64,000 bases of DNA from Protula sp. h YS-2021 (lineage: Eukaryota > Annelida > Polychaeta > Sabellida > Serpulidae), in assembly GCA_949752745.1 (NCBI GenBank), contig OX457024.1, forward strand, positions 106,727,692-106,791,691, in the 5' to 3' direction. This document shows, one piece after another, positions 34,681 to 59,600 of the stretch. The notes under the pieces are model-generated. The model was not told the origin of the DNA, did no database searches, and saw nothing but the letters and a program-made list of their open reading frames with translations. Position 1 is the stretch's first letter. Every line of letters starts with the position of its first letter. Made by a program: the position numbers and the translations under genes.

Positions 34681-35942
34681 GTACTGGTGCCAGATTTTGT
34701 ATATTTAGACTAGGATCTCGAGTTCTTGTTTTAATCACATCTGGAGTTTCCACGTTTGTGTTAATGGTAAAATGCTTAATTCAGTTCAATAAAATATATG
34801 GATGCCAAAAAAAAAATATTGCCTAATAAACGTGAGAATGCATTCATGCAGCTTTATTTTAACTAACACTAATACCAAACCGCTCCAAATTATTTTTATT
34901 ATTATTATTATTATTATTATTATTATTATTATTATTATTATTATTATTATTATTATTACTGAATACTATTACCACAACTTTTACAATTAGTACTAAACTA
35001 ATACTACTATGACTATAACAATAACAGTTACAATAATAGTAGAAGTAGAAGAATTAGTACAAGTAGTAGTGGTAGTAGTAGAAGTAGTAGTGCTAGAAGT
35101 AGTAACAGTAGAGGTAGGCAAAGCAGTAGTGGACTTCATAGTAACAGTACTGACAACCACCAGTGACTTAAATGTTACACTAGAATACTGTCGTCATATC
35201 TATAAATAGCGCTAGGAACATTCTGCACTGGAGATCGATCTGAGGCTGTAACACATTTGTTTTGTCTATGGAATATCGTTTGCATAAAATCAATCAGTAT
35301 CTTCTTCTGTTTATTTATGGGTAAAGCTTTCAGCCTTCAAAAGCTGGTCGCTCGTTGTTCCTAAGAACGTGGATACGTAATATCATGACAGTACAATTAG
35401 ATACTTATGGACCTGCTAACACAGTACGCGTTGTCTTTAGTTACTCGGTTTTAAGGTGATTATTCATTTACTGGGTTTTTTTTCACATAAAACAAGTAAG
35501 TATTTGTGAAACACAAGCAGGCCCAAACCGCCCCCAAAATTCATAGGGGTATAAAGCGATGACGGACAGACGGACGGACGGACACCCCAAACCTATAGGC
35601 CCCAATCCGAAGGGTTGGGGCCTTAATAGTTATAGGGCATATATTAAGTTAAATAGTTATAGGGCATAAAAATCGCACTATTTTGTACAAGAAAGGTTTG
35701 AAAATTGAACTCATTTTAACGACTCGGACTGAGGCGGGCATCCGTACTGTATCGCCTGGGTGTCAGGCACCGTCACATCATGGTGAATTATGGTAAAGGC
35801 ACAAAGGGAAAAAGTATAGTATCTGAGTACATGTATCTGAGTACATGGAGAGCAGTATTGTAAAATTACCTGGATTAGTTCCGATCAGCAAATCTTGTGA
35901 CAGTCCGACGTGTGCTAAAATATTTGCTTAAAACAGGGCAGA
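34681..35942. other. Intergenic; ATT microsatellite and possible 5' region of the NWD gene
   Basis: (ATT)n at 34890-34960 and a diverged AGTAGT/GTAGAA trinucleotide block at 35030-35110. If E1 is a late insertion, the promoter of the NWD-family gene should lie left of 35942, because only 35 bp remain between E1 and the start codon. I see no clear TATA box. Confidence 0.4.
35937..35942. repeat. Left target-site duplication of E1 (GGCAGA)
   Basis: Directly precedes the E1 terminus and matches 44317-44322. Confidence 0.85.
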
Positions 35943-35949
35943 AGTAGTG

Positions 35950-56600: not shown

Positions 56601-59600
56601 ATGTCCGCTAACCCCGTTCCAAAGTATCCGCTCGTTCCGTAATATCCGCTAACCCTGTTCCAAAGTATCCGCTCGTTCCAAAGTGTCCGCTAACCCTGTT
56701 CCAAAGTATCCGCTCGTTCCATAATGTCCGCTAACCCTGTTCCAAAGTGTCCGCTCGTTCCATAATGTCCGCTAACCCCGTTCCGTTTTATCCGCTGGTA
56801 GTGTCCGCTTAATCTTCAATTTTTAACCCAACGTACTTTGTCTTGTGACGTTTTCGTGACTATGTAACATCATGTGACATTATGTGACGTTATGTGACTT
56901 TATGTGACTATGTAACATCATGTGACATTATGTGACATTATGCGACTTTATGTGACTCTGTGACATTATGTGACATTATGTGACTCTGTGAGATTATGTG
57001 ACTCTGTGACATCATGTGACATTGTGTGACTCTGTGAGATTATGTGACTCTGTGACATCATGTGACATTATGCAACTTTATGTGACTCTGTGACATTATG
57101 TGACATCATGTGACTATGTGACATCATATGGCTATATGACTATGTGAGGACTATGTAATTGCTATGTCAGCATAATTAGTCTAACTATGTATGTAATTAT
57201 CAGGCTGTTCAATAGACCAGGTCTGTTAGCTCACTTGGTAGAGCAGAGGACTCGTAAGCTAAAGATCGGTGGTTCGATCCCACCCAGGGGCAAACACAAC
57301 TTTTCGTTTTTTGTTTGTTTTCTGTTTGTTTTTTTGTTTGTTTTTAACATATCCATATTTCTATGCCTTTTTTCACTGATAATATTTAATTAGTCATATT
57401 TCAGTGGTTCTATTACAGTAAAAACACATACACACAAAGCGTAGGAATAAGTATATGAAAGCCCTCAGAGTGTGGGAACGATCAATAAATTTGTGCGCGA
57501 AAGACCTCAGAGCGTGAGAGCGATCAATAAATTTGAGAACATCAAAGACCACAGACCGTGGGAACGATAAATAAATTTGAGAACATCAAAGGCCTAGACC
57601 GTGCGAACGATCGATAAATTTGAGAAGGAATGGGATTTTCCCCACGCTAAGTCTAATGTTATGTGTTATGTTATAGTAGTGGGAAAATGGTGGTTCTAAA
57701 GCACATTTAACAAATGTAGTTTTTGGAAAACATATGATGCATAAAATAAGTGTGAACATTTTACCATGCTACTAATTCCAATGCTTTGAAGTCATAGTAT
57801 TGGAAAAACGATGCTTTGAAACCAACTTTAACAAATTTTGTTTTTTTGAGAACATATGATATATAAAAAAGTTTGACATAAGACATAAGTTTTTTTTTTT
57901 TTGGTGAGAAGAGCACACCATTCAAACATATGTTCGAATGACAAGCCCATTCAAAGACGTGTTCGAATTTTTATTGGAACATATTGCGTCATGGTATTGT
58001 TCAACATGACTTTAGAACATTCGAATAAGTAGCATGCTAAAATGCTAAAACCTGTTTTATATATCATATGTTATCAAAAACTAAATTTGTTAAAGTTGGT
58101 CTCGAAGCATCGTTTTCCTCCTACTATGACTTCAAAGCATTGGAATTAGTAGCATGGTAAAATGTTCACACTTATTTTATGCATCATATGTTTTCCAAAA
58201 ACTACATTTGTTAAATGTGCTTTAGAACCACCATTTTCCCACTACTATAACATAACACATAACATTAGACTTAGCGTGGGGAAAATCCCATTCCTTCTCA
58301 AATTTATCGATCGTTCGCACGGTCTAGGCCTTTGATGTTCTCAAATTTATTTATCGTTCCCACGGTCTGTGGTCTTTGATGTTCTCAAATTTATTGATCG
58401 CTCTCACGCTCTGAGGTCTTTCGCGCACAAATTTATTGATCGTTCCCACACTCTGAGGGCTTTCATATACTTATTCCTACGCTTTGTGTGTATGTGTTTT
58501 TACTGTAATAGAACCACTGAAATATGACTAATTAAATATTATCAGTGAAAAAAGGCATAGAAATATGGATATGTTAAAAACAAACAAAAAAACAAACAGA
58601 AAACAAACAAAAAACGAAAAGTTGTGTTTGCCCCTGGGTGGGATCGAACCACCGATCTTTAGCTTACGAGTCCTCTGCTCTACCAAGTGAGCTAACAGAC
58701 CTGGTCTATTGAACAGCCTGATAATTACATACATAGTTAGACTAATTATGCTGACATAGCAATTACATAGTCCTCACATAGTCATATAGCCATATGATGT
58801 CACATAGTCACATGATGTCACATAATGTCACAGAGTCACATAAAGTCACATAATGTCACATAATGTCACATGATGTTACATAGTCACATAAAGTCACATA
58901 ACGTCACATAATGTCACATGATGTTACATAGTCACGAAAACGTCACAAGACAAAGTACGTTGGGTTAAAAATTGAAGATTTAGCGGACACTACCAGCGGA
59001 TAAAACGGAACGGGGTTAGCGGACATTATGGAACGAGCGGACACTTTGGAACAGGGTTAGCGGACATTATGGAACGAGCGGATACTTTGGAACAGGGTTA
59101 GCGGACACTTTGGAACGAGCGGATACTTTGGAACAGGGTTAGCGGATATTACGGAACGAGCGGATACTTTGGAACGGGGTTAGCGGACATTTTGGAACAG
59201 CTTGTAATTAGCGGACATTTCGGTACAGCGGACAAAACAGAACGGAACACACGTAGCAGAACAACCGACGATATACAAGGCGTCAGACGGATCCATTGAT
59301 GTAGAAAACCCTCGGTACAACTTGCGGAAGTTGAGCGAGCTACCACATGCGTGTGACAAGATTAGCAAACAGGAAGATATCACACCATTCATCGCCAAAC
59401 ATATCAGCCTCAATCCGGAGTTTCTGTGCTCTTGGATAAGGAACAAACCATGGGAAGAAGTCTCCGAGTTCATTACCGGTCGGTCGAGCGCCAGTCAGTA
59501 CAAAGATCAGTATCACGAGTACACCAAAGTATGCAGAATGAAATGTGAAGGTCATGAGTTGACACCAGAGCTTGAGGGTGTACTAGAAGAGGCAGAAGAA

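Follow-up and report, generated by a model that had tools for sequence, protein, structure and literature searches.

Among described transposons, those closest to the element considered here are the Polintons (Mavericks), which in vertebrates end in (AGT)2//(ACT)2 or (AG)3//(CT)3 and are flanked by 6-bp target-site duplications, according to the available part of PMC8097293. We analyzed a 64,000-bp stretch of the genome of the serpulid annelid Protula sp. h YS-2021 (contig OX457024.1, positions 106,727,692 to 106,791,691; hereafter, the window), which contains E1, a palindromic element of 8374 bp. E1 resembles Polintons in its 6-bp duplications, AGT-type ends and inverted termini, but differs from them in being a full palindrome in which no integrase, ATPase core or DNA polymerase B (PolB) was detected, and whose gene appears to be an ATPase-less relative of a Polinton ATPase fusion. 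We regard E1 as a likely snap-back derivative of Polintons, non-autonomous and high in copy number, which would have arisen by protein-primed snap-back replication followed by integrase-mediated insertion.

Other systems resemble E1 in part. Subgenomic phi29 molecules, palindromic in form and reportedly generated in vivo by polymerase template switching (work by Murthy in 1998 and Esteban in 1997), would share with E1 a protein-primed polymerase and an origin as template-switch products, but they are neither integrated nor inherited, whereas E1 spreads by inserting itself and duplicating 6 bp of target. Template switching by the phi29 polymerase is on record in the accessible text of PMC4176320. 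Adeno-associated virus makes snapback genomes (PMC8235507) and RNA viruses make copyback genomes (PMC12363239), which the available portions of both sources present as self-complementary and defective and trace back to template switching by the polymerase or to rejoining, much as proposed here for E1. They involve other polymerases, however, and are not transposable elements. The Foldback (FB) elements of Drosophila have 9-bp duplications, as opposed to 6 bp in E1 and in its palindromic neighbors E2 and E3 (a difference already pointed out by the initial annotation of the window, and upheld here), and we know of no Polinton ends or genes in FB or Tetris. Like E1, FB and Tetris elements have long inverted arms rich in repeats; Tetris is the subject of PMC4079207.

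The E1 palindrome and its copies

E1 extends from 35943 to 44316, with ends AGTAGT...ACTACT, between identical copies of the duplication GGCAGA (35937 to 35942 and 44317 to 44322). Its two 4187-bp arms align without gaps and differ at six positions, all near the central loop (0.14% divergence over the aligned arms). The center, at 40129, is a hairpin with a short asymmetric loop (40110 to 40149). Each arm carries an open reading frame (ORF) for a 245-amino-acid (aa) C2H2 zinc-finger protein, whose N-terminus faces the center (38995 to 39732 on the reverse strand in the left arm, with a Pfam zf-C2H2 match and a profile match; 40527 to 41264 on the forward strand in the right arm). Each arm also holds a minisatellite array found with Tandem Repeats Finder (TRF), namely a TTAGTTACGCC-type array at 36942 to 38165 on the forward strand, mirrored on the reverse strand at 42094 to 43317; between the flanking unique segments, the array measures 1219 bp in both arms. 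The initial annotation had described E1, E2 and E3 as palindromic insertions of 8374, 3202 and 2708 bp with exact border duplications (GGCAGA, CAGTCA and CACGTA, respectively) and minisatellites in their arms. Arm alignment confirms the sizes and inverted arms, the three duplications are as described, and TRF finds minisatellites in all three elements. That annotation mentioned neither the 245-aa gene of each E1 arm nor the Polinton-type termini.

A 501-bp arm query was searched against the 863-Mb assembly. All 40 matches scored, among 2167 first-look candidates, are 100% identical to the query, and they form 19 mirrored pairs and two single places. The sample analyzed below comprises 21 copies (20 fetched and the window copy), of which 19 have both ends (L023 and L027 lack one or both). 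Ends were placed at the AGTAG nearest the palindrome edge, and the duplication then served to confirm them. AGTAG...CTACT is read in every one of the 19 copies that have both ends, with AGTAGT at 22 and AGTAGG at 16 of the 38 ends. When duplication length is tabulated, it is 6 bp and exact in all 19 (18 of 18 by script, and L012 by eye), with no fixed motif among the target duplications. E1 is a young multicopy family and a recently active mobile element.

Within a copy, the two arms tend to carry the same variants. The 40-bp ends are identical on both sides in 15 of 18 copies, for 17 end types, while 100,000 shuffles yielded at most 8. Similarly, array length is exactly equal between arms in 9 of 20 copies, at nine different values (mean 0.55 and maximum 7 in 200,000 shuffles), and about 1.65 kb of inner arm shows zero arm differences in 14 of 21 copies, versus an inter-copy median of 32. 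The arm nearest to a given arm is strictly the other arm of its own copy in 6 of 21 copies, and is tied with it in 10. From one insertion event to the next, a variant of E1 thus often comes to be present in both arms by copying, although some recombination or slippage occurs as well.

Polintons and palindromic Polintons in the same genome

Searching the genome with Pfam DNA_pol_B_2 gave 84 matches, and a 1351-aa PolB frame is kept at 12 listed loci. One of the elements found is a compact Polinton of 8.9 kb on C11 (L045:4348 to L046:3228), with 119-bp inverted termini, AGTAG ends and the duplication GAGACG. It carries three genes, encoding an rve integrase (2.3e-12), a 579-aa zinc-finger/ATPase fusion and PolB (PF03175, 4.1e-24). 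Its ATPase matches (AAA_14 and Adeno_IVa2) fall under the Pfam cut-offs, while the counterpart in L044 passes Adeno_IVa2. This element thus combines integrase, ATPase, PolB, AGT ends and a 6-bp duplication, as Polintons do. Save for two frames opposite integrase and PolB, no other ORF of at least 120 aa was found in it, nor any recognizable capsid frame of that length, in a survey that included no capsid model. E1 shares with Polintons the duplication length (6 bp in 19 of 19 copies) and AGT-type inverted termini, the full (AGT)2 being present at part of its ends only. The initial annotation had proposed looking for a transposase gene with matching ends: an integrase source for AGTAG-ended elements does exist in this genome, although none of the autonomous elements found has the exact termini of E1.

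The same genome also contains palindromes with Polinton genes. Two of them carry PolB in both arms: L041/L042, with AGTAG ends, the duplication TCGGGA (by eye) and arms diverged by 0.08%, and L043/L044, with AGTAGT...ACTACT ends, the duplication CTTGTT (by eye), arms diverged by 0.39% and an asymmetric center of 1.55 kb. Each arm of L043/L044 runs from the outer end through PolB to the ATPase gene, where it turns, a layout that would be expected if half of a compact Polinton had been copied back.

Two further searches gave pair counts that are lower bounds, as 75 of 10543 first-look candidates were scored for the ATPase fusion and 111 of 9020 for the integrase. The ATPase fusion yielded at least 15 inverted pairs within 5 kb, all divergent and none convergent, besides a single pair on the same strand, from 75 loci (75 of 104 rows, the 29 lower rows being taken as second pieces of the same loci). 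For the integrase, 109 loci (all 113 rows, after merging same-strand pieces less than 500 bp apart) include at least 16 pairs that diverge and one that converges within 10 kb, and no same-strand pair. An ATPase inverted pair is enclosed by 14 of the at least 16 integrase pairs, eight with exactly the same center and six with centers within 0.5 to 176.5 bp; two integrase pairs enclose no ATPase pair, and one ATPase pair (C6) has no integrase pair. Three integrase/ATPase palindromes (C1:108866912, C3:101985347 and C4:11081024) each have a 660-bp gap, spans of 5775-5785 bp and nearly the same match ranges; they seem to be a degenerate family multiplied as a palindrome.

A palindrome on C5 preserves the point at which the sequence turns. 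The left end of the compact Polinton is present at both of its termini (2659967 and 2667550), identical over the 24 bases read per end, and the integrase and ATPase genes are mirrored between them. The duplication, TAGATA, lies within a GATA repeat, the phase of which fits a 6-bp duplication. The center is 100% identical to the parent for 184 bases, which extend just into the last PolB codons, and then turns: the parent reads TTATTTATACTAAAATCC at this junction and the palindrome TTATTTATACTAAAATAA, a short stretch being missing on the left side of the center. A nascent end AAAT folding onto an ATTT located six bases upstream would give the observed center.

The E1 protein and the origin of E1

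The 245-aa frame is open in 38 of 42 E1 arms; it is 237 aa long in two, stops at 159 aa in one, and its start was not found in one. A protein search with this gene returned four relatives, all without a name. Three of them (P0001-P0003), elsewhere, are 33-52% identical to the E1 protein, which suggests that the gene itself is old. The fourth, P0004, is a relative of the E1 protein at 8.6e-5 and an ATPase-type fragment, matching the ATPase/zinc-finger fusion at 8e-30 (this and the three E-values that follow are from single comparisons). A first profile comparison contained P0004; when repeated without it, hhalign of separate alignments on both sides matched the E1 protein to the C-terminal part of the fusion (E = 3.4e-20 over 154 columns). 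By BLASTP against the 579-aa fusion, the N-terminal finger matches at 41% over 34 aa (7e-5), and the C-terminal finger plus the following region at 17% over 163 aa (1e-4). To judge from these comparisons, the E1 gene is a distant homolog of the Polinton ATPase/zinc-finger fusion that lacks the ATPase core: only the flanking zinc-finger/C-terminal part is matched, and no counterpart of the core was seen in E1. The orientation of the gene, with its N-terminus at the center, is that found in the at least 15 divergent ATPase inverted pairs. The fusion itself has 145 relatives in a protein search, several of them named, from bivalves (Mytilus, Mizuhopecten, Mya, Solemya and Mercenaria). Scans of IMG/VR with the zinc-finger alignment and with a PolB piece detected no relatives, and an E1 stretch had no match in a phage collection.

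From the observed palindromes, duplications, ends, gene homology, arm matching and C5 junction, we infer the following course. While a Polinton-type polymerase B carries out protein-primed, strand-displacing replication, the nascent strand, or the displaced one, would fold back at a short microhomology and be copied. The product would be a head-to-head palindrome that has lost one end of the genome and bears the other at both termini and, as two Polinton ends are kept, it could still replicate. Polinton integrase supplied in trans would then insert it with a 6-bp duplication. Each single strand of such a palindrome would be a hairpin of its two arms, so that mismatch repair or renewed fold-back copying could equalize the arms in every cycle, whereas the arms of old insertions would drift apart. 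The E1 protein may act as a DNA-binding competitor or recruiter. To our knowledge, Polinton replication has never been observed directly, and no palindromic Polinton derivative is described among the best matches in the open literature, as judged from titles and the beginnings of abstracts (Repbase and subscription papers lay outside this search).

Several results weigh against a snap-back origin of E1. A tblastn search of the window with a C-terminal piece of PolB, 501 aa long, found no PolB in E1, nor was any integrase piece detectable by tblastn; lacking integrase, PolB and ATPase, E1 is filed as a non-autonomous derivative rather than as a Polinton. Neither its exact termini nor its array was found in any autonomous element. 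Beyond AGTAG the ends disagree, with AGTAGT or AGTAGG in E1 and AGTAGC in the compact Polinton. Five of the six fetched Polinton pieces compared with E1 have no BLAST match to it at 1e-5 (L029-L040 were outside this comparison), and all that matches in L041, the sixth, lies beyond the limits of its element. As the E1 modules are absent from the elements of the fetched Polintons, we reject the presence of a direct parent of E1 among them. The ATPase fusion gives no tblastn match to E1 at 1e-3 in the window, so that the link through the E1 gene rests on pairwise and profile comparison, and the match of the N-terminal finger could be generic C2H2 similarity. Codon changes among full-length versions of the gene amount to six non-synonymous and two synonymous ones, so that the open frames within the family may be due to youth and not to selection. 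Arm matching is itself incomplete: the arm of another copy is nearer than the copy's own other arm in 5 of 21 copies, arrays differ in length between arms in 11 of 20, and the ends are unlike on the two sides in 4 of 19, which indicates that E1 arms also recombine or slip. In the E2 family, a 6-bp duplication is present at the queried end in only one of six other copies (GACCAA). Finally, the C5 junction is the only snap-back junction read in detail.

The alternative that survives best, although we regard it as unlikely, is that the palindrome formed once, long ago, and has since moved as ordinary DNA, with gene conversion between arms after insertion keeping them identical and no fold-back in each cycle. 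Arm-to-arm gene conversion is known from Y-chromosome palindromes and also predicts arms that are identical within E1 copies and different between them, and the three palindromes with a 660-bp gap apparently did multiply as palindromes. However, older elements have diverged arms, as in E2 (6.4%, for 1.06 kb of outer arm only), and the left arm of E2 matches several other copies at 94-96% (over 1-398), more closely than the 93% (over 75-398) at which it matches its own right arm. Conversion therefore does not equalize all arms. It also leaves the differently broken palindromes and the snap-back junction on C5 without explanation.

It is considerably less probable that E1 belongs to a new foldback superfamily with its own transposase, its likeness to Polintons being a convergence on 6-bp duplications. 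The disagreement of the termini past AGTAG with those of the fetched Polintons, the lack of a helper with E1 ends among the elements found and the negative tblastn result for the ATPase fusion would fit such an origin. It is countered by the joint occurrence of AGT-type ends and 6-bp duplications in E1, by the profile similarity of its gene to the Polinton ATPase fusion and the orientation shared with the ATPase inverted pairs, and by the existence, in the same genome, of palindromes carrying Polinton genes. The suggestion of the initial annotation that no named superfamily has such a combination is not borne out for E1, in view of its 6-bp duplication, AGTAG end, Polinton-related gene and the palindromic Polinton halves around it in the genome. 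An assembly or read artefact is rejected as wholly improbable: long perfect palindromes are a known form of the false palindromes made by foldback reads (described in the available part of PMC12870357), and N gaps cut two of the 21 E1 copies, but in each of the 19 copies with both ends the palindrome breaks off at AGTAG and a 6-bp duplication, where one would expect a foldback read to run on into the flanks, and E1 copies differ from each other while their arms match.

Beyond E1 itself, we put forward a broader proposition tentatively: Polintons in this lineage may regularly shed heritable snap-back genomes, the integrated equivalents of copy-back defective viral genomes, which would become self-standing families re-homogenized via the hairpin in every round. 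In E1, the ATPase/zinc-finger gene would have become one for an ATPase-less protein that might parasitize or restrain the helper, and foldback elements elsewhere could share this origin. A class of giant foldback elements would have a concrete source in virus-like transposons that integrate, replicate by protein priming and make copy-back errors, and the palindromes would offer genomic traces of a Polinton replication intermediate, the hairpin. The model can be tested in populations through the arm equality, copy by copy, that is expected when arms pair as a hairpin in each cycle. The zinc-finger protein of E1, lacking the ATPase, hints at a natural parasite of, or brake on, Polintons. The relatives of E1 form an unusually informative set within one genome.

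E2, E3 and the tRNA-like units

E2 is a 3202-bp palindrome (49793 to 52994; 49787 to 53000 with its CAGTCA duplications), with ends AGTAGG...CCTACC and no recognized gene, and is older than E1. Its left end is of the AGTAG type, and BLAST detects modules common to E2 and E1. Going by its AGTAG end, E2 is probably an element of the same kind as E1. In four of the six other E2-family copies the palindrome continues past the E2-type end, and one copy shows neither this pattern nor a duplication; E2-type ends thus often lie inside larger palindromes. The copies concerned, within L067-L074, are nested or mosaic palindromes, and in three of the four longer ones the E2-type end is flanked by gaatgggattttc, which recurs as a module in both E2 and E3.

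E3 is a 2708-bp palindrome (56542 to 59249; 56536 to 59255 with its CACGTA duplications) whose arms differ by 1.7%. It is located inside an open frame that belongs to an NWD1-like gene: once the insert is removed, the flanks join into one continuous frame, so that this gene is split in the present haplotype unless the insert is spliced out. The ends TGTTCC...GGAACA recur in all ten family copies read, with 6-bp duplications that are exact in seven and have one mismatch in three. The target is NNCGNN, CG being central in at least one duplication copy at 10 of 10 sites (L047-L066), as well as at E3 in the window. Two of the three one-mismatch duplications are changes of the CpG-to-CpA/TpG type.

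These ends and targets suggest an integrase other than that of E1. Taken alone, E3 has close to an even chance of being a non-autonomous palindrome that belongs with an integrase-type transposon, IS3EU/GingerRoot-like or other, and not with Polintons. Its constant TG...CA ends and its 6-bp duplications centered on CG speak for this possibility, and GingerRoot has 6-bp duplications with TA..TA or occasionally TG..CA ends, making GingerRoot-like elements the nearest published fit by ends and duplication length, as far as the available part of PMC10045372 goes. On the other hand, no transposase with E3-type ends was found in our searches, an NNCGNN target is absent from the GingerRoot description in that part of the source, and internal modules of E3 recur in E2, an element with an AGTAG end. 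Ginger1 is more distant, as it has a 4-bp CCGG/CCGT duplication (PMC2836005, available part) instead of the 6-bp NNCGNN of E3.

The initial annotation had united E1, E2 and E3 in one family. Modules are indeed common to E1 and E2 and to E2 and E3, but E1 and E3 have no BLAST match at 1e-3, and E3 differs in its termini and target preference. A single family is thus rejected, and E3 is best treated, on its sequence features, as a palindromic family separate from E1 and perhaps of another origin.

The tRNA genes attributed to these elements did not withstand scrutiny either. ARAGORN, with bacterial settings, detected no tRNA gene in the window. Under the Rfam tRNA model (cut-off 29), the E3 unit (57227 to 57284, forward strand) scores 22.9 bits and one E2 unit (50194 to 50278, forward strand) 12.2 bits. 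The A/B-box-like E1 unit, recognized by eye at 36537 to 36616 on the reverse strand with its mirror at about 43643-43722 on the forward strand, yields no match (36500-36640 searched). These three units were tested singly, while the remaining E2 unit and the mirrored units were covered by the whole scan, which gave no tRNA match at E 1. Intact tRNA genes are rejected, and the units would at best be degenerate, A/B-box-like promoter remnants. Other Rfam matches, all under gathering scores and mostly on short inverted repeats, were taken as chance. Our results give no support to describing the three elements as a new superfamily that carries tRNA genes.

Elsewhere in the window, an ORF starts at 44352, 35 bp beyond the end of E1, with only a weak match to DUF4062. 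A 200-base N gap lies at 21017-21216, and the window as a whole (1-64000) is rich in minisatellites, with 165 TRF rows, overlapping rows included.

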